DNA from: Methanoregula sp.
Lineage (GTDB): Archaea; Halobacteriota; Methanomicrobia; Methanomicrobiales; Methanospirillaceae
Reading direction: 5' to 3'
Assembly (NCBI GenBank): GCA_022710385.1
Contig: JAKLGZ010000008.1
Span: 1 to 32,613 of the forward strand
Length of the DNA stretch: 32,613 nucleotides
Positions 4,513-23,521 of this stretch are shown in pieces. Below the pieces are notes generated by a model that had not been told where the DNA came from, made no database searches, and saw only the letters and a program-made list of their open reading frames with translations. The stretch's first letter is position 1. Each line of letters opens with the position of its first letter. The translations under genes and the position numbers were made by a program.

Positions 4513-4992
4513 ATGACAACACCGCTAAAAATCCCCAGAATGGCAAAGGCAGAGTATGACTCCCTGATCGCACGGCAGCATGTATCACGGATTGCATTTG
4601 CTGCGGCAGAGCATCCCTATATCGCGCCGTTCATGTACGTTTTTGATGGGAGGTACCTCTATTTCCTTTCCACAAAATATGGCCGTAAGATCGAATATTT
4701 TAAAACAAATCCAAAAGTCTCTGTTGAGATCGAGGAATATGCACCCGACCTGTCTGCATTCACGTTCGTGAGTCTTCAGGGCACCCTAGAAGAGGTTCAG
4801 GAATCCGCAAAGAAGAAGGAGGTGCGGAGCCTCTTTGTCGATATGATCAGGAAGAAAGGGCTCTCACCGCTGGTACTGAGTGCACTGGGGCATTCACCAG
4901 GCGAACCAGTAGAAAAACTGGCCCAGGAAGAACGATCGATGGTGTGGAAACTTGTGGGAGTAAAGGATATTGTTGCCCTGAAAAACCGTTGA
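4513..4992 (+). CDS. Pyridoxamine 5'-phosphate oxidase-fold flavoprotein
   Basis: A 159-residue single-domain protein of the PPOX-like split-barrel superfamily, which binds FMN, heme or F420. Diagnostic strands are HVSRIAFAAAEHPYIAPFMYVFDGRYLYF and TKYGRKIEYFKTNPKVSVEIEE, the usual pattern of a short N-terminal helix, paired strands and the cofactor-phosphate region. No membrane segment. It is divergent from the DUF523 gene with about 100 bases between. ATG 4513 is chosen because it is preceded by GAGGA at suitable spacing and gives the usual N-terminus; the frame stays open to 4405 with unlikely sequence. The reaction cannot be named from sequence; members range from F420-dependent reductases to heme-degrading proteins. 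Confidence 0.85.
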   Translation: MTTPLKIPRMAKAEYDSLIARQHVSRIAFAAAEHPYIAPFMYVFDGRYLYFLSTKYGRKIEYFKTNPKVSVEIEEYAPDLSAFTFVSLQGTLEEVQESAKKKEVRSLFVDMIRKKGLSPLVLSALGHSPGEPVEKLAQEERSMVWKLVGVKDIVALKNR

Positions 4993-5032
4993 ATGGTGGC
5001 GGATCCAAAAAATCTAAGAATTCTATAGTCAG

Positions 5033-5062
5033 CCCTTTTTTTCGTGAGGGAAAAATTAAAAG
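5033..5062. terminator. Shared terminator between convergent genes
   Basis: A T7 run on the + strand (5036-5042) lies about 45 bases past the PPOX gene. AAAAATTAAAAG (5051-5062) gives a T-rich run on the minus strand directly after the rubredoxin stop. This suits a bidirectional archaeal terminator. Confidence 0.5.
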
Positions 5063-5063
5063 A

Positions 5064-5420
5064 TCATTCGGTTGGCACAAAGGCGCTCTTCCCTATCTTT
5101 GCATAGACCCCGCAGACGGGACAGACGTACGTGTCAGGCAAATCTTCAAACGCGGTGTCCGGTTTTATCCCGTTCTTGGGCTCTCCTCGTTCGGGATCAT
5201 ACACATAGCCACAGGCAATGCAGCGATACCGTCCGGATGGAGCATCAAGTGGATTAAAGGCAGTCTTTCCAATCTTTGCCTTTCCACATACAGGACAGGT
5301 GTAGTCCTTGGGAAGATCTTCAAAGGCAGTTCCTGGGGGAATACCGTTCTTTGGTTCTCCCCTCGCTGGATCATAGATATAACCACAGGCTTCACAAACG
5401 TATGATCTCATTCTTTTCAT
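5064..5420 (-). CDS. Tandem (double) rubredoxin
   Basis: A 118-residue protein made of two rubredoxin domains of about 55 residues each. The first has C9-x2-C12 ([10 protein letters not shown]) and C42-x2-C45 (CPVCG); the second has C67-x2-C70 ([10 protein letters not shown]) and C100-x2-C103. Each set should bind one iron through four cysteines. Rubredoxins pass single electrons in the cytosol, in anaerobes often to peroxide- or superoxide-reducing enzymes. The domains are nearly identical, sharing the ARGEPKNGI / ERGEPKNGI loop, so this looks like a fairly recent internal duplication; the second has one extra residue after CPVCG. ATG 5420 is chosen for AGGGT about nine bases upstream. Pairing with the peroxiredoxin or flavoproteins nearby is inference only. 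Confidence 0.93.
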
Positions 5421-5474
5421 AATTATACCCTGGACTGCTAGTTGCTGGTGCAACACAGGGTAAAGAGTGGGTAA

Positions 5475-5486
5475 GTTATTAAAGAT
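5475..5486 (-). promoter_or_regulatory. Possible TATA box for the rubredoxin gene
   Basis: The minus strand reads ATCTTTAATAAC, an archaeal box A-like sequence that would place transcript initiation near 5455, leaving a leader of about 35 bases before ATG 5420. Confidence 0.35.
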
Positions 5487-5705
5487 AACCCTCCGGGAAC
5501 CTCTTCGAGGATATTATTATTCTGTAATATCATTCGTTCGGTAAACCACTAACAATCAAAAGAGGGGGATGGGATTAAGTAAAAGATATCTCGGCCACCT
5601 TACTGTATGGGCGGGTCTTACTCCCGACTTCGTCCTTCTGCAACAAGAATCGGCCTGCCCTCCAGCTGGTCATCGAGATTGAACACAATCGCGAAAGAGC
5701 AAGCT

Positions 5706-6017
5706 CTATCCCCAGATAGGATCATCCCCGAACCGTTCCATCCAGAAATCAGCGGGGCTCTGCTCAAGGTCTCGTGAGAGGTCCTCGATCCGGAACGAGA
5801 AAACATGGTTCATACAATAATCAGCTAGAAGATCGTATGCCCGCTTCAACCGGATGGTCATCTCGTGCGAGGCTGCCGGATCGAGATTTGAGACATCAGG
5901 ATGCCATTTCTTGATCTGTTCATGATATTTCTGCTTGATCTCATAGAGGGAGGCATGTTCCTGGATTCCCAGTTGCTCTGCTGCTTCCCTGAGAACCGCA
6001 GGAGTGACATCGGCCAT
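5706..6017 (-). CDS. Short J-domain (DnaJ-like) protein
   Basis: A 103-residue protein holding little more than a J-domain. The signature HPD is at 39-41 in KYHEQIKKWHPDVS, preceded by the charged helix II and followed by the helix III motif LKRAYDLLADY (about 57-67). J-domains stimulate the ATPase of Hsp70 (DnaK). The Gly/Phe, zinc-finger and substrate-binding regions of full DnaJ are absent, so this is a class C J-protein. The N-terminal 20 residues resemble the usual lead-in helix, and ATG 6017 is the natural start. The tail is acidic and ends FGDDPIWG. It is divergent from the cysteine desulfurase with about 85 bases between. The client is unknown. Confidence 0.85.
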   Translation of the reverse strand: MADVTPAVLREAAEQLGIQEHASLYEIKQKYHEQIKKWHPDVSNLDPAASHEMTIRLKRAYDLLADYCMNHVFSFRIEDLSRDLEQSPADFWMERFGDDPIWG

Positions 6018-6103
6018 GTACTATTTGTTCCGCTCATCCCGCGATAATGGTTCGTGGTACTACCGATCCCTTTTTCCCGGTGATTATCAGATCTTAAAAA
6101 AAG

Positions 6104-7276
6104 ATGCTCCCCACTCAAAAACCACTTATTTATCTCAACAATGCAGCAACCAGCTGGCCGAAACCTCCTGGGGTACTGGCAGCGATTGCGCAATCCCTCT
6201 CCCTCCCGGTCTTCGGCTCCGGGAGAACGACAGGGACCCAGGGTGAGGACTACCTCACACTGGCCCGGGACGGGCTTTCCGCGTTTCTGGGAGGAGCACC
6301 GCCCGAACACCTTGTGTTCACCCATAATGCAACGGATTCCCTCAATATCCTCATATCTGGTTTTCTTGCGGAAAAAAAAGAGCAATGCCATGTCCTTACC
6401 ACGACACTGGACCACAACTCCGTGCTCCGTCCCCTGCATGAATATGAGCAACAAGGCCGCATACGGTTGGACATCATTCCCTTCAAGGACTGTTTTGTCA
6501 GTCCCGACGCCGTTCAAGATTCCATCCGTCCCGACGCCCGCCTCATGGTCATGACCCATGGTAGCAATGTGCTCGGATCGACCCAGGATATCAGGGCAAT
6601 CGGGGAAATCCTGCATGACCATGGTATCTACTTTATCGTGGACGGTGCCCAGACTGCCGGCCATATTCCCATCGGCCTAAAAGATCTTCCGGTCGATGCC
6701 TTCGTTATCACCGGCCACAAGGGTCTCCTTGGCGTTCCTGGGACGGGGGGATTTTTCCTGCGTGACCCGAAAACCATTGCACCGGTCCGGTTTGGCGGGA
6801 CCGGGACGGACTCGTTCTCGCTCCTCCATCCCCGTGGGATGCCGGAGCGGTTCGAGATCGGGACCCACAACTACCCGGGCCTGGCAGCGCTTGCAGCGGG
6901 AGTGGAGTTCCTTAACGAGACGGGACTGGCAATCATCAGGGAAAAGGGGGAAAAACAAACATTGTTTCTCATCAGGGAACTGAAGAAAGAGGAAAATATC
7001 ATGATCTACAATGACCACCCGGACCTGCCCATCATCGCGTTCAATATCAAGGGCCTCCAGAACGATGACGTGGGATTCATGCTGGCCCGGGGATACAACA
7101 TCATCTCTCGGACTGGGCTCCACTGTGCCCCCCTGGTGCACAAGGCTATTGACGGAGGCGAAGGCTGCGTCCGGCTCAGCCTCTCCTGGTTCACGACCGA
7201 TGAAGAATGCCGGTTCGCGGCTGATGCCGTGCGGGAGATAGCCAGGAATGCGGATTCTGCGGTCGGTCCGGCATAA
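6104..7276 (+). CDS. Class V aminotransferase-fold cysteine desulfurase
   Basis: A 390-residue PLP enzyme of the cysteine desulfurase family (NifS/CsdB-like subgroup). The N-terminus has the family opening IYLNNAATSWPKPP, the PLP lysine is K206 in ITGHKGLLGVPGTGG, VDGAQTAGH supplies the cofactor-binding Asp, and the probable persulfide-forming cysteine is C341 in RTGLHCAPLVH. Length and motif order fit a complete enzyme. Such enzymes take sulfur from cysteine for Fe-S clusters, thiolated tRNA or other sulfur cofactors. No IscU/SufBC gene is in the window, so the acceptor is unknown. It leads a probable three-gene run with the 107-residue protein and the methyltransferase. The start follows an A-rich stretch with no clear Shine-Dalgarno. 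Confidence 0.9.
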   Translation: MLPTQKPLIYLNNAATSWPKPPGVLAAIAQSLSLPVFGSGRTTGTQGEDYLTLARDGLSAFLGGAPPEHLVFTHNATDSLNILISGFLAEKKEQCHVLTTTLDHNSVLRPLHEYEQQGRIRLDIIPFKDCFVSPDAVQDSIRPDARLMVMTHGSNVLGSTQDIRAIGEILHDHGIYFIVDGAQTAGHIPIGLKDLPVDAFVITGHKGLLGVPGTGGFFLRDPKTIAPVRFGGTGTDSFSLLHPRGMPERFEIGTHNYPGLAALAAGVEFLNETGLAIIREKGEKQTLFLIRELKKEENIMIYNDHPDLPIIAFNIKGLQNDDVGFMLARGYNIISRTGLHCAPLVHKAIDGGEGCVRLSLSWFTTDEECRFAADAVREIARNADSAVGPA

Positions 7277-7298
7277 GGTCTGTGCTGACGGCTCCTTC

Positions 7299-7622
7299 AT
7301 GAAGGAGTTCCTGCTCGACGTACCGGTTACAAGGGAATTTTTTACCTATCTGGGGAACTTCGGGCAGGTTGAAGCACTCCCGAATGTCGGCAAGGGATTC
7401 TACAAGTTCGAGAAGCCTGACTGGTTTTCCATCAAGGGGTTCGCCGGCGATACCTCGGTAGAAGTCAGGTTTAAGAAGGAGGTGATGGACCTGACCGTCG
7501 ATTTCGTCTATCTCCTCTTTTCTACCTACAGAGGAGACGGGGATAAGTTCGACCTCTCTGTCCTGAAACGGCGGGAGGAGGCCATCGGAGAACGGGTCCG
7601 GAAGCGTCTCTACGAGACGTGA
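7299..7622 (+). CDS. Hypothetical protein between desulfurase and methyltransferase
   Basis: A 107-residue protein that I do not recognise. It is mixed alpha/beta, slightly basic, with no cysteines, signal peptide or membrane segment. A distinctive middle part reads LGNFGQVEALPNVGKGFYKFEKPDWFSIKG and the C-terminus is a charged helix (LKRREEAIGERVRKRLYE). Codon use resembles the neighbours. ATG 7299 is preferred because the protein then opens MKEFLLDVPVTREFF, a plausible first strand. An alternative ATG at 7248 overlaps the desulfurase by 29 bases and has GGGAGAT about ten bases upstream, so it cannot be dismissed. It probably shares a transcript with both neighbours. Confidence 0.7.
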   Translation: MKEFLLDVPVTREFFTYLGNFGQVEALPNVGKGFYKFEKPDWFSIKGFAGDTSVEVRFKKEVMDLTVDFVYLLFSTYRGDGDKFDLSVLKRREEAIGERVRKRLYET

Positions 7623-7633
7623 GAGGTGCATCA

Positions 7634-8209
7634 GTGTCGCGGGATGTATTTGAGGAGTATGCAGAAGATTATGACCGGTGGTTTGATGAGCACCACGATG
7701 AGTATCTCGCAGAACTCTCCCGCATCATGAAGGTGCTCCCGGCACCAGACTCCCGCTCAGTCGAAGTGGGGGTCGGCTCCGGCCGTTTCGCCGCCCCCCT
7801 GGGGATTGGACTGGGGATCGAACCCTCTCGTGCCCTCGGTCGGATGGCACGTCAGAGAGGGATTGAAGTCGTCCGGGGCTTGGCCGAGGCGCTCCCACTG
7901 CGGGATGGCTCATGTTCTTCGATACTCATGGTAACTGTTATCTGTTTCCTTGAAGATCCGGTTCCCGCATTCAGGGAAATCCACCGCATTCTCGTGTCCG
8001 CCGGATTTCTCACCCTCGCATTCATTGAAGACAGGGGATCTATCCATCAGAGATACCTTCGGGAAGGCGGAAAAGGGCGGTTCCTCTCCCGAGCGCGGTT
8101 TTATTCGCAGGAAGAAATCTGTGCACTCCTTGAGGGGACCGGGTTTACCGTGACGGAGGTAGATGCAAGGGCTGGTTTCTGTGTGATTAGGGCACAGCGG
8201 GGTTATTGA
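7634..8209 (+). CDS. Class I SAM-dependent methyltransferase
   Basis: A 191-residue methyltransferase of the UbiE/Methyltransf_11 type. Motif I is SVEVGVGSGRFAAPLG (about residues 41-56), motif II lies around GLGIEPSRALGRMA, and the post-motif regions AEALPLRDGS and FLEDPVPAFREIHRIL follow. The N-terminus FEEYAEDYDRWFDEHHDEY is the common lead-in of this group. GTG 7634 is chosen because GAGAGGTG sits about five bases before it; an upstream GTG at 7619 overlaps the preceding gene by four bases and would add five residues. The substrate cannot be told; the domain is shared by small-molecule methylases of many kinds. It is last in the desulfurase run. Confidence 0.88.
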   Translation: MSRDVFEEYAEDYDRWFDEHHDEYLAELSRIMKVLPAPDSRSVEVGVGSGRFAAPLGIGLGIEPSRALGRMARQRGIEVVRGLAEALPLRDGSCSSILMVTVICFLEDPVPAFREIHRILVSAGFLTLAFIEDRGSIHQRYLREGGKGRFLSRARFYSQEEICALLEGTGFTVTEVDARAGFCVIRAQRGY

Positions 8210-9716: not shown

Positions 9717-9969
9717 ACAGGATATGTATCTTCTCATCCTTTCCCTAAGATATAAGCATCGCTCTCTGTGTATTAAGATCTGGAGGGGGCTGATCCTCTC
9801 TGAACGTTGGGAAAGGACCGGGATAAACAGGAATGCCGTGATTCTCATTATTGCAGCTGTCGTAACAATTGTAACCCTTTTTCAAAGCTAAGCTTCAGTG
9901 CCTGGAGTTTCAAGGATATGTAGATGGTTCTGTAATGATCGGACCGAGTCCATATCAGAGAGGATTTAG

Positions 9970-9977
9970 TTTAAATA
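9970..9977 (+). promoter_or_regulatory. TATA box of the exporter-PPK2 operon
   Basis: TTTAAATA is a textbook archaeal box A, preceded by a purine-rich GAGAGGA stretch that could act as the TFB element. Its centre lies about 26-27 bases before the ATG at 10001, so transcription should start almost on that codon. Confidence 0.65.
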
Positions 9978-10000
9978 GTTATTCTGCTTCTCAATTCACC

Positions 10001-10099
10001 ATGGAACTTTTCAGAGTGATTAACCAGAGATACTTCCCTCTCTCATTACCCCAGGGTAGCATGAGTATACCAATGCTGCTCCAGACTGGGGGTGGCTGA
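10001..10099 (+). CDS. Candidate 32-residue leader ORF before the ABC exporter
   Basis: A 32-codon frame opens with ATG at 10001, at the start site predicted by the TTTAAATA box, so it would be read from a leaderless mRNA. It ends with TGA at 10097-10099, five bases before the exporter ATG at 10105. The purine run GGGGGTGG at 10089-10096, which could serve as ribosome-binding site for the exporter, lies inside its last codons, so translating the leader would carry ribosomes onto the exporter start. The peptide is mildly basic with LSLPQGSMSIPMLLQ and a terminal GGG. I recognise no family. It may be a regulatory leader, a real microprotein, or chance. Confidence 0.4.
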   Translation: MELFRVINQRYFPLSLPQGSMSIPMLLQTGGG

Positions 10100-10104
10100 C
10101 GACC

Positions 10105-11862
10105 ATGCTTGAGAATCTTCGCCGTCTCCTGGTGGTGTACCGGGAGGTATGGAAATGGATCGCCCTGTCCCAGGTGTTGGTACTCTTCGGGGCACTCTTC
10201 ATGCTCATGATACCGGTCCAGGTGTCCAACCTCCTGGACAACGGGGTGGTTGGCGGTGACGTTGAAGTGGTAGTGGAAAGCTGCCTGAAGATGCTCTTTT
10301 TTGCCATTCTCGCAGGGGCATTCTCGATGGCCAACCTGTACATCGCAGCACGGCTGGGAGAGGGCACGGCACATTACCTTCGCAAGGAAACCTATCGGAA
10401 AATACAGACGTTTTCGTTTGGGAACCTTGACCGGTATCCCACGGGGGAACTCCTTGTCCGTCTCACCAATGACATCTACCAGATCAATATGGCAGTGAAC
10501 TACGCCACACGGTTTATCCTGTACGCCCCTTTCATGATCCTTGCCGCGCTGGTGTTTGTCTACATAGACAGCCCCGATCTGGTCTGGATCTTTCTCCTCG
10601 TCATCGTCGTTACTGCGCTGATATTTGGGGCTGTCGCGATCATGCTCCAGAAACAGTATATCAACCGGCAGAAGATGCTGGATGGGCTGAACAACGTGCT
10701 CCAGGAGGTCTTTGCAGGCGTCCGGGTGGTAAAATCCTTCGTAAGGCAGGGATACGAGAACAAGCGGTTTGAAGGAAAGAATGATGATCTCCGCCAGGCT
10801 TCATTACCCCCGCTCTACTATAGTGCGCTGCTCCTTCCCGCGATTTTTATCATCCTCGGTCTTTCCAATGCCCTTGTCATCTGGTTTGGAGGCACCCAGG
10901 TCCTGGCCGGAACCATGGATATCGGCCAGATCGTCGCGTTCACCCAGTATTTCTTCTTCATCCTGGCCCAGTTGCTGATCCTCTCATTCGTCCTGCCGGC
11001 TATCATCTCTGCAGAAGCGTCTGCTGGACGAATCGTGGAGCTGTTTGATGCCACTCCTGCAATTGCGGACAGTCCCGCCCCACAGCACCTGGATTCGGCT
11101 CTCCTGAAAGGGAGGGTAGAATTCGAGAATGTCTCCTTCAGCTATGATGGTGCCGGGGGGAAAGAATCGGTCAGGAACGTCTCGCTTGTCGCAGAACCCG
11201 GGCAGACGGTTGCCTTCCTCGGTCCGACCGGTTCGGGGAAGACCACCCTCATCAACCTGATCCCGCGATTTTACGACGTCACGACCGGGCGGATCACCAT
11301 CGATGGCACCGATATCAGGGACCTCCCCCAGGATCACCTCCGTTCCCTGATAGGAATCGCCCTCCAGGAGAGTATCCTCTTCTCCGGGACCATTAAGGAG
11401 AATATCGCGTTCTCCGACCCTGAAATCCCCTATGATCACGTTGTGTCGGCAGCAAAGGCAGCCGATGCCGATGACTTCATCTCAGCGATCCCCGGTGGCT
11501 ATGATTCCCGTGTAGCCCGGAGAGGAGCCAACTTTTCTGGAGGGCAGCGGCAACGGATCTCCATCGCCCGTGCGATCGCGTCCCGGCCTTCCATTCTCAT
11601 CCTCGATGACAGTACCAGTGCCGTGGATGTTGTCACCGAAAGCCGCATCCAGGATGCGCTGGGAACCATGATGCCCAATACTACCAAATTCATCGTCGCA
11701 CAGCGGATCAGTACCGTCCTCACCGCAGACACCATTATCCTCCTCGATCAGGGAGCAATCGTCGCGAAGGGAAGTCACCATGACCTGATCCGCACCAATC
11801 CGCTCTACAGGGAAATTTTCGAATCACAACTTGGTGGTGTGCGGAGGGAGGACCTGATATGA
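10105..11862 (+). CDS. ABC exporter half-transporter with degenerate ATP site
   Basis: A 585-residue half-transporter: six transmembrane helices (about 20-310) fused to a nucleotide-binding domain. Walker A is GPTGSGKTT (about 373-381) and the signature is intact (FSGGQRQR). The Walker B region reads ILILDDSTSAVD, with Asp in place of the catalytic Glu, and the switch histidine is Gln (FIVAQRIST). This pattern is known from one partner of heterodimeric exporters such as TM287/288 and BmrCD. The second half-transporter follows with an ATGA overlap, so the two should form one complex in the membrane. Substrate is unknown; multidrug or lipid-like compounds are typical. It is first long gene of an operon ending with PPK2. 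Confidence 0.92.
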   Translation: MLENLRRLLVVYREVWKWIALSQVLVLFGALFMLMIPVQVSNLLDNGVVGGDVEVVVESCLKMLFFAILAGAFSMANLYIAARLGEGTAHYLRKETYRKIQTFSFGNLDRYPTGELLVRLTNDIYQINMAVNYATRFILYAPFMILAALVFVYIDSPDLVWIFLLVIVVTALIFGAVAIMLQKQYINRQKMLDGLNNVLQEVFAGVRVVKSFVRQGYENKRFEGKNDDLRQASLPPLYYSALLLPAIFIILGLSNALVIWFGGTQVLAGTMDIGQIVAFTQYFFFILAQLLILSFVLPAIISAEASAGRIVELFDATPAIADSPAPQHLDSALLKGRVEFENVSFSYDGAGGKESVRNVSLVAEPGQTVAFLGPTGSGKTTLINLIPRFYDVTTGRITIDGTDIRDLPQDHLRSLIGIALQESILFSGTIKENIAFSDPEIPYDHVVSAAKAADADDFISAIPGGYDSRVARRGANFSGGQRQRISIARAIASRPSILILDDSTSAVDVVTESRIQDALGTMMPNTTKFIVAQRISTVLTADTIILLDQGAIVAKGSHHDLIRTNPLYREIFESQLGGVRREDLI

Positions 11863-19449: not shown

Positions 19450-20259
19450 ATGGATCCTAATCCCGATACCAATTACCCCCCCCTCCTGGAATTCAGGAAT
19501 GTCACCATTATCAAAGGGGGGAAATCAGTGCTCGACAATATCTCGGTAACCCTTCACCAGGGTGAGCATATTGCCATCCTCGGTCCGAACGGTGCGGGAA
19601 AGTCCTCATTCATCAAGACCATCAACAGGGAGTACTACCCGGCGGTGCAGGATGAGAACGGCCTGATATTCCGGATGCGGGGTCGCGATGTCTGGAACGT
19701 CTGGGATTTAAGAGCACTGTTCGGGATCGTGTCAAATGACCTGTTGTTCACTTTTACACGGGATATTTCCGGGCGCGAGGTGGTATTATCCGGGTTCTTT
19801 TCGAGTATAGGACTCTTCCGGCATGAAGTAACGGCAAGCATGGAGGAGAAGACCGATGAGATCCTCGAGTTCCTTGAAATAGACCACCTGCAGCAACGGC
19901 CGATGACCTCGCTCTCCTCCGGTGAAGCCCGTCGGTTTCTTATCGGCAGAGCCCTCGTCCATGATCCAAGGACCCTCATTTTTGATGAGCCCACCAACAG
20001 CCTCGATCTCCATTCACTGCATACGTTCCGTTCGATGCTGAGAAAGATTGCGCAATCCGGCACCGGGATCATCCTCGTGACCCATAACCTCCATGATATA
20101 ATCCCTGAAATCAGACGGGTGATTCTGATGAAGGATGGCAGGTTCTGGAAGGATGGGCTGAAAACCAGGATTCTCACTGATGAGAATCTGACGGAGCTGT
20201 TCAGGGTTCCCCTCCATGTGCTGAAGGAAGGAGGATACTTCTACGCGATGGGATACTGA
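19450..20259 (+). CDS. Stand-alone ABC ATPase (COG1119/ModF-like)
   Basis: A 269-residue single nucleotide-binding domain. Walker A is GPNGAGKSS (about 44-52), the signature is LSSGEARRF, Walker B is TLIFDEPTNSLD, and the switch histidine is in ILVTHNLHDI. It resembles the COG1119 group (E. coli ModF, yeast-like repressors), which often lack a cognate permease; none is adjacent here. All catalytic residues are present, so it should hydrolyse ATP. It may serve a permease elsewhere or have a non-transport role. The start ATG 19450 has only a weak upstream purine stretch. It is divergent from the PPOX gene and convergent with the radical SAM gene. Confidence 0.85.
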   Translation: MDPNPDTNYPPLLEFRNVTIIKGGKSVLDNISVTLHQGEHIAILGPNGAGKSSFIKTINREYYPAVQDENGLIFRMRGRDVWNVWDLRALFGIVSNDLLFTFTRDISGREVVLSGFFSSIGLFRHEVTASMEEKTDEILEFLEIDHLQQRPMTSLSSGEARRFLIGRALVHDPRTLIFDEPTNSLDLHSLHTFRSMLRKIAQSGTGIILVTHNLHDIIPEIRRVILMKDGRFWKDGLKTRILTDENLTELFRVPLHVLKEGGYFYAMGY

Positions 20260-20281: not shown

Positions 20282-20512
20282 CTAATACACCTCCTCTGTT
20301 GTGGGAAGGCTCTGGTGCTTTTGAGACACCTCCTTTTTGAAATACCTCTTTCTTAATACACCCCCTGTTCGACAGTATTCTTTTGCACGATGCATCACCA
20401 ATGGTATCGCAATTATCCCAGCCCATTGTGGGACGTTCAGAAAAGAGAACCCATAGAGGCAGGAATACAAAATACTGGGAACCAGGTACCCCGGGATTTT
20501 TTTGCCGTGCAC
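20282..20512 (-). CDS. Doubtful 76-residue membrane protein after the radical SAM gene
   Basis: A GTG-started frame opening eight bases after the radical SAM stop on the same strand. The peptide is coherent: two short hydrophobic segments (GYLVPSILYSCLYGFSFL and WAGIIAIPLVM), then a basic tail with one cysteine region (KEYCRTGG) and a polar end. GAGGAT lies directly before the GTG, closer than usual for a ribosome-binding site. It contains two cysteines in all, one in the first hydrophobic segment. It could be a small membrane partner or a precursor peptide for the radical SAM enzyme, a remnant, or chance. No family match is known to me. Confidence 0.28.
   Translation of the reverse strand: MHGKKIPGYLVPSILYSCLYGFSFLNVPQWAGIIAIPLVMHRAKEYCRTGGVLRKRYFKKEVSQKHQSLPTTEEVY
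20283..20365. repeat. Degenerate short direct repeats
   Basis: TAATACACCTCC (20283-20294) and TAATACACCCCC (20354-20365) match at 11 of 12 bases, with a weaker copy GAGACACCTCC at 20323-20333. They lie in the convergent end of the ABC ATPase and radical SAM genes. Significance is unclear. Confidence 0.3.
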
Positions 20513-20520
20513 ATCCTCAT

Positions 20521-21681
20521 TTATGGCGATAGTACTTTATGCATCAGCGTCATTACCCCCGGCCTCTTTCGTGCACCCTGTTCTCTCTGGAATGATGAAA
20601 CCCCATCTAGGAATGAAGTACCCATCATCTCATCGTTGAGCCGTGTGCCTATCTCATTGAAAATCCGTGTATACGCCCTGCAATGGGGATCAACGCCTGC
20701 AATCTTCCCTCCCGTGGGGACGATAGCGTTATATGGGCATCCCCCGCGGCAGTAACGGAGGTGTTTGCACTCCTTGCACGCTTCATCCACGTACTCCTCA
20801 TACTGGTGCATTCTCTGCCACGGACCTGAACATGACAATTCCTCCATTGTTGGCGCATCCCGGACATGACCCATTACCCATTCCGGCATCCCGACAAACC
20901 GGTAACAGGGATAGATACTCCCGTCAGGGCCCACCGCAAATGTGTTTCCCGTGCAGTTCACGAACGTACAGACCGATCCCCTCCTTGTGAAAATACACCG
21001 GCAGAGATCATTGATGTTCATGATCTCGATCGAATCCAGATTATCCAGATATTTATCAAGGAGGAAGACGAGCAAATCGCCATAGTCATCCGGATCGAGT
21101 GCCCATTGTTCCGGATTTTTATCACGCAGCGAGGGAAGGGCCGGATGCAGTTTCAACCTGAAACGGTTCTCAAGGAAGAAGTTGAAAATTTCCTCACGAA
21201 ATCGGACGGAATAATTGGTAAAGGTACAGATGAAGCTGACCCGCAGGCCATGGGCTCTTGCGATCTCATACCCCCGCATCGTCTTTACAAAATAGCCTTC
21301 TCCCCTCTGGAGATCGTTTAATTCCTCCGGACCATCGATGCTGGTCCCCAGGGGGACCTGGTACTCTGCAAGTATAGCGGCAATTTCCGGGGTGAGGAGC
21401 CACAGGTTGGACTGCATCGCAAACTCGGGCTTGAGGTGGCTGAGCTCTCGGGAGATCATGGGAAGGGCCTGCCGGTAGAAATCGGCACCGGCCAGGAGGG
21501 GTTCGCCCCCGTGGAAGGTGAATGTGGCACGATCATTCCTGAACTCTTTCAGCCAGGTGACAACATCCCTGACGGTGTCGATACTCATTTTTGGTGATCC
21601 TGCATCAGAGCTCCAGCAGTAGCTGCAGTGTGCAGGACAACCCAGGGTCGGAATGAGCATCACATGGAACGGATTTTTCAT
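20521..21681 (-). CDS. SPASM-domain radical SAM enzyme, putative peptide maturase
   Basis: A 386-residue radical SAM protein. The SAM-cluster motif CxxxCxxC is C15-PAH-C19-SY-C22, early in the chain as expected. FHGGEPLL supplies the SAM-binding GGE motif. The C-terminal third is a SPASM domain with cysteines in VCTFVNC, GPDGSIYPCYRF, CKECKHLRYCRGGCPYNA and DPHCRAY, enough for two further Fe-S clusters. This layout is shared by anaerobic sulfatase maturases and peptide-modifying enzymes; it resembles the methanogen Mhun_1560-type family, a match made from memory. No sulfatase is nearby. ATG 21681 is chosen because it begins at the conserved KNPFHVMLIPT strand; upstream GTG codons are possible. 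Small candidate partners lie on both sides. Confidence 0.88.
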   Translation of the reverse strand: MKNPFHVMLIPTLGCPAHCSYCWSSDAGSPKMSIDTVRDVVTWLKEFRNDRATFTFHGGEPLLAGADFYRQALPMISRELSHLKPEFAMQSNLWLLTPEIAAILAEYQVPLGTSIDGPEELNDLQRGEGYFVKTMRGYEIARAHGLRVSFICTFTNYSVRFREEIFNFFLENRFRLKLHPALPSLRDKNPEQWALDPDDYGDLLVFLLDKYLDNLDSIEIMNINDLCRCIFTRRGSVCTFVNCTGNTFAVGPDGSIYPCYRFVGMPEWVMGHVRDAPTMEELSCSGPWQRMHQYEEYVDEACKECKHLRYCRGGCPYNAIVPTGGKIAGVDPHCRAYTRIFNEIGTRLNDEMMGTSFLDGVSSFQREQGARKRPGVMTLMHKVLSP

Positions 21682-21800
21682 GGCAGCGTACACCACTGTC
21701 CCTTTTCAAAGATGTTAACGGTTTTCTTCTTTCCCCCGTTCCCCTGAAAAAAGGTAATCAATGATCGCTTCGTGCAGAAAGAGGCCTCATCTGGAGGGAT

Positions 21801-21811
21801 AGTATTTTATT
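21801..21811 (+). promoter_or_regulatory. Possible TATA box for the 64-residue protein
   Basis: AGTATTTTATT, preceded by purine-rich GGAGGGAT, is centred about 28 bases before ATG 21834. That spacing fits a leaderless mRNA starting at the codon. The same GGAGGGAT could instead be a ribosome-binding site for an in-frame TTG at 21810. Confidence 0.4.
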
Positions 21812-21833
21812 GAACTCCGGTAATCGCTATCAT

Positions 21834-22028
21834 ATGAAAGACATCGTGGCAACCAGAAAAATGGAGAACGGGGTTGCAGTGTATTATCCCGAAGGGAACG
21901 ATACAAAACTGGAATCATTCAACTATTCAGAACTGATCGATCTGAAAATTAATGCCCTTGATCTCCTGGAAAATCCGAAGATGTACCAGGTGGACCCTCA
22001 AAAGCATAGGATTGTAATGAAAAAATAA
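21834..22028 (+). CDS. Small hypothetical protein upstream of RuBisCO
   Basis: A 64-residue protein I do not recognise. It is highly charged, without cysteine, tryptophan or hydrophobic segments. It opens with a strand-like MKDIVATRKMENGVAVYYP, then KLESFNYSELIDLKINALDLLENPKMY, probably one helix, and ends with a basic tail. Codon use fits the neighbours, so I believe it is real. ATG 21834 is chosen on the spacing to the TATA-like box; TTG 21810 in the same frame, adding eight residues, is the alternative. It is divergent from the radical SAM gene and 200 bases upstream of the RuBisCO gene, so it could be linked to either. Confidence 0.65.
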   Translation: MKDIVATRKMENGVAVYYPEGNDTKLESFNYSELIDLKINALDLLENPKMYQVDPQKHRIVMKK

Positions 22029-22228: not shown

Positions 22229-23521
22229 ATGGCAATCGACTGGTACATGGATTTTGTGGACACCGGCTATATCCCGGCAAAGGATGAGCTGATCTGTCTT
22301 TATCGTTTCGAGCCTGCAGCAGGGATCAGCAGGGAGGAAGCGGTAGGCCGGATTGCATCCGAGAGTTCAACGGGCACATGGACGACCCTCTACTCCCTTC
22401 CCCCAATGATGAAAGCGCTGCAGGCAACAGCGTTTGAAATCGAGGGCACCTTTGTGAAGATCGCGTATCCACTCGCTCTTTGGGAGGAAGGGAACGCCTC
22501 CCAGCTGCTGAGCGGGATTGCCGGAAACATCTTCGGTATGAAGGCGCTGAAACACCTCAGGCTGATCGATGTGACCCTTCCTCACGAGTATTTACGGCAT
22601 TTCAAAGGCCCTCACTTCGGCATGGACGGTATCCGGGAAATGATGAAGGTCCATGGGCGACCCCTTACAGGGGCTGTCCCGAAACCCAAGGTTGGATTCT
22701 CTGCGAAAGAACACGCTTCAGTCGGATTCGAAACCTGGATGGGGGGATTTGATTTTGTCAAGGATGACGAGAACCTGACCTCGACCTCCTTCAACCGGTT
22801 TGAGGATCGGGTATCAGCCCTCGCAAAAAAGAGGGACCGGGCTGAGCAGCTCACCGGAGAGAGAAAATCGGCGTTCATCAATATCACTGCCGATACGGCG
22901 ACCATGGAACGTCGCGCCGCCCTCCTCGCTGAGTACGGTTGGACTTATGCCATGATCGATGTCGTGGTCGCAGGTACTTCTGCGGTCTCGACACTCAGGG
23001 ATTACTGTTCAGATCTCGGGCTGGCGATCCATGCCCACCGTGCCATGCATGCTGCATTCGATCGGGATCCAAAACACGGCATCTCGATGCAGTTCATCGC
23101 AAAACTGATGCGGCTTATCGGCGTGAGCCAGATCCATACCGGTACAGCGGTTGGAAAGCTGATCGGATCGAAAAAAGAAGTGCGACTCCTTGCTGATGTC
23201 CTTCGCAATTCACTGACAAAGCCCTCGGGCACTATCCTCCTTGAACAGGACTGGGGGAGCATGAAGAGCGCCTTTCCGGTCTCGTCTGGAGGTCTCCATC
23301 CCGGCCTTGTCCCGGATGTTCTGGATATCTACGGTGAGGATCTCGTTCTTCTCGTAAGCGGTGGAATCCATGGACATCCTGACGGGACAAGGGCCGGGGC
23401 GGAAGCGACAATGCAGGCCATCGAAGCATGGAAGGAAGGGATCTCTCTCCGTGAGAAAGCAGCGGGATCAAAGGAACTCGCACGGGCGCTCGAAAAGTGG
23501 GGATACTATAAGCCGAAATAA
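22229..23521 (+). CDS. rbcL: Form III ribulose-bisphosphate carboxylase, large chain
   Basis: A 430-residue archaeal RuBisCO, which carboxylates ribulose 1,5-bisphosphate to two 3-phosphoglycerates. All key residues are visible: the KPKVG lysines (152/154), the carbamylated lysine K178 with metal ligands D180 and E181 in GGFDFVKDDE, H270 in HAHRAMHA, loop 6 lysine K310 in GTAVGKLIG, the phosphate-binding SSGGLHPG (352-359) and GG at 378-379. This rules out an inactive RuBisCO-like protein. There is no small subunit gene, as expected for form III. In Thermococcus-type archaea the enzyme acts in AMP salvage; in Methanospirillum-type methanogens in a reductive hexulose-phosphate pathway with phosphoribulokinase. 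Neither set of partner genes is in the window. Start ATG 22229. Confidence 0.95.
   Translation: MAIDWYMDFVDTGYIPAKDELICLYRFEPAAGISREEAVGRIASESSTGTWTTLYSLPPMMKALQATAFEIEGTFVKIAYPLALWEEGNASQLLSGIAGNIFGMKALKHLRLIDVTLPHEYLRHFKGPHFGMDGIREMMKVHGRPLTGAVPKPKVGFSAKEHASVGFETWMGGFDFVKDDENLTSTSFNRFEDRVSALAKKRDRAEQLTGERKSAFINITADTATMERRAALLAEYGWTYAMIDVVVAGTSAVSTLRDYCSDLGLAIHAHRAMHAAFDRDPKHGISMQFIAKLMRLIGVSQIHTGTAVGKLIGSKKEVRLLADVLRNSLTKPSGTILLEQDWGSMKSAFPVSSGGLHPGLVPDVLDIYGEDLVLLVSGGIHGHPDGTRAGAEATMQAIEAWKEGISLREKAAGSKELARALEKWGYYKPK

Follow-up and report, generated by a model that had tools for sequence, protein, structure and literature searches.

A radical SAM/SPASM enzyme family as a candidate for didehydroaspartate formation in methyl-coenzyme M reductase

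Introduction

Methyl-coenzyme M reductase (MCR) is the source of nearly all biological methane and catalyses the first step of its anaerobic oxidation. Several residues of its alpha subunit, McrA, are modified, and for some of them the enzymes have been described. Mmp10 (MamA), which makes 5-methylarginine, and MgmA, which makes 2-methylglutamine, are radical S-adenosylmethionine (SAM) enzymes that modify McrA as cobalamin-needing methyltransferases. The gene for Mmp10 adjoins the mcr operon in most methanogens, and the enzyme was found in 2018 through such neighbourhoods (PMC5943407). YcaO-TfuA and McmA, responsible for thioglycine and S-methylcysteine, act on the same stretch of McrA that concerns us here, LGFFGFDLQDQCG in M. 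acetivorans (PMC5589413, PMC7058361). For another modified residue, didehydroaspartate (DDHD), a 2020 review knew of no enzyme (PMC7581889) and a 2021 structure paper called the machinery unknown (PMC8070964). Here we analyse a gene of the radical SAM/SPASM family TIGR04083 in a 32,613-nucleotide stretch of Methanoregula sp. (assembly GCA_022710385.1, contig JAKLGZ010000008.1, positions 1 to 32,613; hereafter the window), and propose its family as the DDHD enzyme.

TIGR04083 (rSAM_pep_methan) is an NCBIfam hypothetical equivalog named 'peptide-modifying radical SAM enzyme', a family with a name but only a predicted role. That name guesses a peptide substrate; the evidence assembled here points to the protein McrA instead. 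We put the probability that TIGR04083 makes DDHD in McrA at roughly 85%, a judgement that rests on gene distribution, gene order and published modification data. The window enzyme resembles Mmp10 and MgmA as a radical SAM enzyme that would modify McrA, and differs from both in being of the SPASM type, with a predicted dehydrogenation; from YcaO-TfuA and McmA it differs in chemistry and family, which are unrelated, and in the distribution of the modification. Our literature search, to which most subscription journals were closed, so that prior publication is possible, returned no accessible text linking TIGR04083 to MCR or naming a DDHD enzyme. The family is a specific and cheaply testable candidate for the enzyme that PMC7581889 and PMC8070964 describe as unknown. 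With a natural broken copy in Methanothermobacter wolfeii and a tractable host in M. acetivorans, the question can be put to experiment. If the proposal is true, it adds a part to the kit for fully modified recombinant MCR, and provides a SPASM enzyme that probably acts on a large enzyme of metabolism and not on a sulfatase or a ribosomally synthesized and post-translationally modified peptide (RiPP).

Co-occurrence and linkage with mcrA

The window gene is an intact member of TIGR04083, beyond chance. Its product scores 667.6 bits against the family model, far over the cut-off of 300, and covers the whole of it (profile positions 1-376 of 376); the Pfam domains PF04055 (Radical_SAM) and PF13186 (SPASM) are also above their cut-offs. 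The first-pass annotation, made from the sequence letters, had recognized an intact SPASM radical SAM enzyme, and rightly so; the gene lies on the minus strand. Translation starts at an ATG, and a GTG upstream at 21696 would lengthen the protein by 5 residues.

Across 295 genomes of the phylum, nearly all at least 90% complete, TIGR04083 exceeded its cut-off in 115, with a bimodal distribution of scores (at least 570 bits, the next being 210). A McrA match was present in 114 of the 115, some of them partial (for example in G163 and G175), and the exception, G265, is an assembly of 50 contigs. McrA alone was found in 64 genomes and neither gene in 116, giving a Fisher p of 2e-33 for the co-occurrence, kinship ignored. 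By class, the cut-off was passed in 131 of 151 genomes of Methanobacteria and 151 of 237 of Methanosarcinia, and in none of the Methanococci (0/36) or Methanopyri (0/5).

The gene also tends to stand behind mcrA. An order-level search of 61 genomes gave 55 with an enzyme copy of at least 500 bits, and when the neighbourhoods of 56 copies were clustered, mcr and mtr proteins were among the families listed. The fetched span contains mcrA in 11 of 55 loci (those of 54 other genomes and a second copy in the window's own assembly); nine of these have the enzyme on the same strand, 3' of mcrA at 139-1327 bases, and the other two on the opposite strand. Among genomes of the same genus that carry the gene outside the window's own clade, the enzyme follows mcrA in 6/6. 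In a wider set of at least 29 genomes, a lower bound, both genes lie on one contig within 7 kb; the enzyme is 3' of mcrA in 29/29 and on the same strand in 25/29, with gaps of 144 to 6635 bases, and 18 of the 29, from families f1, f3, f8 and f34, combine the same strand with a gap under 500 bases. The order mcrBDCGA-enzyme recurs in Methanomicrobiales, in genus g62 and in one genome of the type of anaerobic methanotrophic archaea (ANME) group 2c, where the gap is 180 bp. Genus g62 belongs to the Methanosarcina family (f8), and there the enzyme follows mcr in 10/10 genomes that bear TIGR04083. Among the linked genomes is G544, where the best PDB match of McrA is the ANME-2c chain 9qm5 (1202 bits). 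Eight loci of families f8, f21, f31 and f34 show mcrB, mcrD, mcrG and mcrA, and five of them also mcrC. The window's genome belongs to Methanomicrobiales, the order that also includes Methanoculleus sediminis (G050), with the enzyme at 88,915-90,039 of contig C14, as in G325, the genome of the named locus L166. In G040 and G045, two further Methanoculleus genomes, no match passed the cut-off.

One of the eight loci just named, L305 (G103), has immediately behind the enzyme a 121-residue frame at 9836-10201 (plus strand) in which the C-terminal part of McrA is repeated; the enzyme is thus flanked by a complete mcrA on one side and a partial one on the other. This frame suggests transfer together with mcrA 3' sequence, and the arrangement looks like a scar of horizontal transfer. 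In L086, a locus of the window's own genome, two proteins of the dinitrogenase-FeMo-cofactor family and two ParA/Mrp-type ATPases with ferredoxin domains are encoded at 4676-7948, between the mcr operon and AtwA-like/mtr genes.

Agreement with the didehydroaspartate profile

The original DDHD papers are reportedly those of Wagner from 2016 and 2017. We compared the distribution of the gene with that of the modification after assigning the relatives' genomes to species or groups by the identity of their McrA to PDB chains. DDHD is present in both MCR I and MCR II of M. marburgensis, in M. barkeri and M. acetivorans, and in ANME-2c and ANME-2d; it is absent from M. wolfeii, M. kandleri, M. formicicus, M. 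thermolithotrophicus, M. shengliensis, ANME-1 and Ca. Ethanoperedens (PMC9081873, with its Table 1, and PMC12413448).

Among organisms that have DDHD, M. marburgensis (G467; McrA 546/546 identical to 1mro and 549/549 to 5a8r) carries an intact TIGR04083 gene, and M. acetivorans, a named control, is the sole one of 14 controls over the cut-off. Genus g77 (Methanosarcina, with McrA up to 97% identical to that of M. barkeri) has the gene in 12/12 genomes. So do the ANME-2c-type genome described above and, in the phylum set, 3/3 genomes of the ANME-2d-type family f31, where the McrA of G289 is closest to 9qqt and 9qr1, which we take to be ANME-2d chains. On the negative side, the gene is missing at group level from Methanococci and Methanopyri, as given above, and from the ANME-1-like family f10, with 0/15 among the genomes listed (the McrA of G064 there is closest to 3sqg at 1013.8 bits, not identical).

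M. wolfeii supplies a contrast between close relatives. Genome G474 has a McrA I identical to 5a8k over 546/546 residues and a McrA II identical to 5a8w over 549/549, the latter chain being, we presume, from M. wolfeii. Codon 337 of 375 in its TIGR04083 gene is TAG, against TAC in six sister genomes, and the stop falls on a tyrosine that is invariant in 36/36 aligned homologues. The McrA of M. wolfeii differs from that of M. marburgensis at few positions, none of them in the target motif, so the lack of DDHD is not due to a changed substrate. Another copy, L213 (G472, tentatively M. thermautotrophicus Delta-H), is frameshifted within a run of G near codon 235, either genuinely or through an error of early sequencing; if the shift is real, the MCR of this organism should be without DDHD. 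Damaged copies occur elsewhere as well. G276:C47:64335-65450 is a degenerate remnant with a TGA (210 bits), and G385:C278:1613-2725 is otherwise full with one TGA, so the gene may decay repeatedly. Losses such as those in M. wolfeii, G472 and G276 would explain the scatter of DDHD between close relatives.

By these gene assignments, the gene follows the DDHD profile in all organisms and groups open to testing. The same comparison was made for the other products in Table 1 of PMC9081873. The gene is absent from Methanococci, which have thioglycine, methylhistidine and methylarginine; it is present in Methanosarcina, which lacks methylglutamine, and in M. marburgensis, which lacks 6-hydroxytryptophan; and it is broken in M. 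wolfeii, which has methylcysteine. Among the known McrA modifications in that table, DDHD alone fits the distribution of the gene. Together, linkage, co-occurrence and the published modification profile indicate McrA as the substrate. The McrA of the window's own genome retains the target Asp motif, LGFYGFDLQDQCGS. The target Asp is kept in all of the 27 McrA rows, out of 32, that could be read by pattern, enzyme-positive and enzyme-negative alike, so the substrate motif does not discriminate.

Enzyme architecture and proposed reaction

When an alignment of 36 homologue rows of the enzyme (A1) was used as a profile against solved structures, the best relatives were the anaerobic sulfatase-maturating enzymes (anSMEs) 4k36-4k39, with 4k36 first (E 2.8e-48). 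Structure prediction from the window sequence alone gave a mean predicted local distance difference test (pLDDT) score of 36.6, too low for the model to be of use. The window enzyme shares with anSMEs the radical SAM and SPASM domains and a layout of 3+8 cysteines, all eleven invariant in A1 (Table 1). Ten of the eleven fall on the same columns as in 4k36, and C243 lies one residue beside Cys261. The eight SPASM cysteines are expected to hold two auxiliary clusters. Y337, the position lost in M. wolfeii, aligns with a tyrosine of 4k36 (351 by count). Sulfatase maturases carry out a two-electron oxidation of Cys or Ser in which Asp277 is the catalytic base. At that position, counted from the 4k36/4k37 numbering, the window enzyme has a tyrosine instead. 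Pfam detected no cobalamin-binding domain in it.

Beyond the alignments, the mechanism is inferred from this resemblance. The first cluster would cleave SAM, and the resulting 5'-deoxyadenosyl radical would abstract a hydrogen at the beta carbon of the Asp in GF(Y/F)G(Y/F)DLQDQCG, a residue numbered Asp470 in M. acetivorans McrA and presumably Asp450 in that of M. marburgensis. Once the alpha proton is lost and one electron has passed to an auxiliary cluster of the SPASM domain, a Calpha=Cbeta double bond would be left. Such a scheme would be a two-electron oxidation of a side chain like that of sulfatase maturases, with Asp277 replaced by Tyr, an Asp of McrA as substrate and an alkene instead of an aldehyde as product. 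The window enzyme probably introduces a double bond into one McrA residue and does not modify an adjacent small peptide; in its own genome, an assembly of 197 contigs (G000), McrA is encoded on another contig, G000:C124, and the enzyme would act on it in trans.

Table 1. Features of the TIGR04083 locus in the window and their coordinates.
Feature	Position	Strand	Basis or remark
TIGR04083 radical SAM/SPASM enzyme, 386 aa	20521..21681	minus	NCBIfam and Pfam; proposed didehydroaspartate synthase of McrA
CxxxCxxC motif (C15, C19, C22; residues 15-22), radical SAM [4Fe-4S] cluster	21616..21639	minus	Invariant in 36/36 rows of A1
SPASM region, cysteines C238, C243, C259, C302, C305, C311, C315, C334	20680..20970	minus	All eight invariant in 36/36 rows
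Y260-R261, Tyr at the sulfatase-maturase Asp277 position	20899..20904	minus	Invariant in 36/36 rows; profile alignment with 4k36/4k37
Y337, invariant Tyr, three residues past the last cysteine	20671..20673	minus	36/36 rows; homologous codon TAG in Methanothermobacter wolfeii
Conserved upstream block, possible promoter/leader	21700..21735	minus	Kept in 4/4 window-clade loci
76-aa frame, GTG start, two Cys; spurious frame, outside the system	20282..20512	minus	Starts 8 bases after the enzyme stop
64-aa protein, real gene, divergent; not generally linked to the enzyme	21834..22028	plus	dN/dS, genome matches

Weighing the alternatives

Several observations weigh against the assignment of TIGR04083 to DDHD. 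The gene is missing from 64 of 178 McrA-bearing genomes, and DDHD data exist for hardly any of these; some ANME-2-type genomes of families f31 and f34 have no match (for example G557, G547 and G549-G551). M. barkeri could be compared at genus level only, and M. kandleri, M. formicicus and M. thermolithotrophicus at class level only, with M. shengliensis (best McrA identity 77%) and Ca. Ethanoperedens outside the comparison. The M. wolfeii lesion is a single base in a single assembly; the stop lies beyond the last cysteine, with 39 of 375 codons lost, and the rest of the gene is constrained (ratio of nonsynonymous to synonymous substitution, dN/dS, 0.06-0.10), so that the lesion would be recent. 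The stop could be an assembly error, or activity might be retained. Linkage, too, is incomplete: in M. marburgensis and 12 Methanosarcina genomes the gene lies away from mcr, the window copy is not beside mcr, and its clade stands apart from the copies that follow mcr in the same genus. Finally, mtr genes also lie near the enzyme in Methanomicrobiales, within the span in 16 of the 55 loci of the order.

That enzyme and MCR are linked and co-occur names no residue, and the enzyme might make a different, perhaps unreported, modification in McrA or another MCR subunit, its fit to DDHD being coincidental. MCR modifications are indeed still being discovered, such as 3-methylhistidine on the gamma chain in ANME-2d (PMC12413448). 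We nevertheless consider this improbable, as the other entries of Table 1 in PMC9081873 mismatch the distribution and the M. wolfeii lesion coincides with a lack of DDHD. A SPASM enzyme without a Pfam cobalamin-binding domain also suits dehydrogenation better than C-methylation. The proximity of mtr genes raises the further idea that the substrate is a subunit of tetrahydromethanopterin S-methyltransferase (Mtr): mtrE/mtrD lie within about 8 kb of the enzyme in those 16 loci, seven of which (L034, L036, L041, L043, L044, L070, L077) have no mcrA in the span. Yet mcr and mtr genes are neighbours of each other in this order, and Mtr is also used by Methanococci, Methanopyri and M. wolfeii. Moreover, the eight loci of f8, f21, f31 and f34 (L087, L099, L302, L303, L304, L305, L307 and L308) contain mcr and gave zero MtrE/MtrD matches at E<=1e-10 in spans of 10-19 kb, in a search with no Mtr positive control from outside the order; we set Mtr aside on the strength of these loci, as very unlikely. 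An archaeal sulfatase maturase of the anaerobic type is hardly credible, although anSMEs are the closest solved structures and share ten of the eleven cysteine columns. The window enzyme scores 160.9 bits against TIGR03942 (cut-off 349.45), and the replacement of Asp277 by an invariant tyrosine, Tyr260 in 36/36 rows, argues that it is not a sulfatase maturase. The first-pass annotation had seen no sulfatase nearby, and Pfam indeed reported no sulfatase domain among the 31 window frames scanned, with the remaining frames and the rest of the genome outside that search.

The reading offered by the first-pass annotation itself, a modified-peptide system with the 76-residue or the 64-residue product as precursor, has in its favour the family name, the close spacing of both small frames with the enzyme in the window, and the constraint on the 64-residue gene, which keeps its place next to the enzyme in four genomes. 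The second-best NCBIfam model is also a RiPP maturase, that of the dynobactin enzyme DynA (NF041298), but at 161.9 bits against a cut-off of 450 the enzyme is no named RiPP maturase; it is equally near to DynA and to the sulfatase maturases, and far below both cut-offs. The two frames exist as described, the 76-residue one with its two cysteines eight bases past the enzyme and the 64-residue one divergent from it; neither is plausible as a precursor. A tblastn search with the 76-residue frame (E<=1e-3) found no match around the other enzyme copies, 55 loci in all. Its stretch is rich in insertions and deletions relative to L031, L032 and L033, the nearest relatives (the L031 enzyme is 95% identical to the window's), and the frame is lost there, marking it as a chance frame; it is spurious. 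The 64-residue frame is a real gene: its product is 78-97% identical in three relatives, with dS of 0.19-1.45 and dN of 0.02-0.14 to the window copy, and dN/dS is about 0.1 across four genomes, a strong constraint. Purifying selection, whose absence the annotation had named as refuting its reading, is found in this frame; the stretch of the 76-residue one is not alignable as a frame in L031, L032 and L033. The 64-residue family, however, is matched in 71 of 121 order genomes, the window's own among them, and so far as could be seen it is not near the enzyme in the others. Of the 55 other enzyme loci, those of the three closest relatives alone (L031, L032 and L033, from G011, G008 and G010) have it in the span. 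The protein has no cysteine. The search for a conserved small open reading frame was also made around all 56 enzyme copies, by clustering every frame of at least 30 residues with blastp at E<=1e-4, a procedure that shorter or faster-changing peptides would escape; no small family recurred beside the enzyme among the clusters listed, and those found in at least 18 loci all lie inside the enzyme gene. Of the earlier interpretation, the SPASM maturase without a known substrate stands and the small-peptide substrate nearby falls, a peptide precursor here being very improbable. The partner appears to be encoded elsewhere in the genome, an outcome that the annotation itself had named as refuting its reading: gene order, co-occurrence and published modifications point to McrA, encoded on G000:C124.

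Origin of the window copy and neighbouring genes

In the tree, the window copy shares a clade with those of G008, G010 and G011, and the closest partner of this clade is G025, a genome of another genus (support 99/92, the bootstrap not having settled). This placement suggests that the window copy likely arose through horizontal replacement or relocation. A second TIGR04083 copy in the window's assembly, G000:C35:8-1039 (L068), stands at a contig end; it nests with genus g5 in the tree, so C35 is probably a contaminating contig of the metagenome assembly.

The block upstream of the enzyme, around AAGATGTTAACGGTTTTCTTCTTTC, is kept in four genomes and its flanks diverge; it may be a promoter or a regulator site. 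The 64-residue charged protein has neither a Pfam nor an NCBIfam match at E<=0.1, and a second match to it in its own genome lies at G000:C90:6967-7146. Other neighbours in the window are an ABC ATPase (19450-20259), a CxxCxxCC-type protein, an isochorismatase and a type III RuBisCO (22229-23521; 575.8 bits, cut-off 497.45). RuBisCO lies at most 1.6 kb from the enzyme in the window clade only; L048, L056 and L080 also have a RuBisCO match, at a distance of about 5-8 kb.

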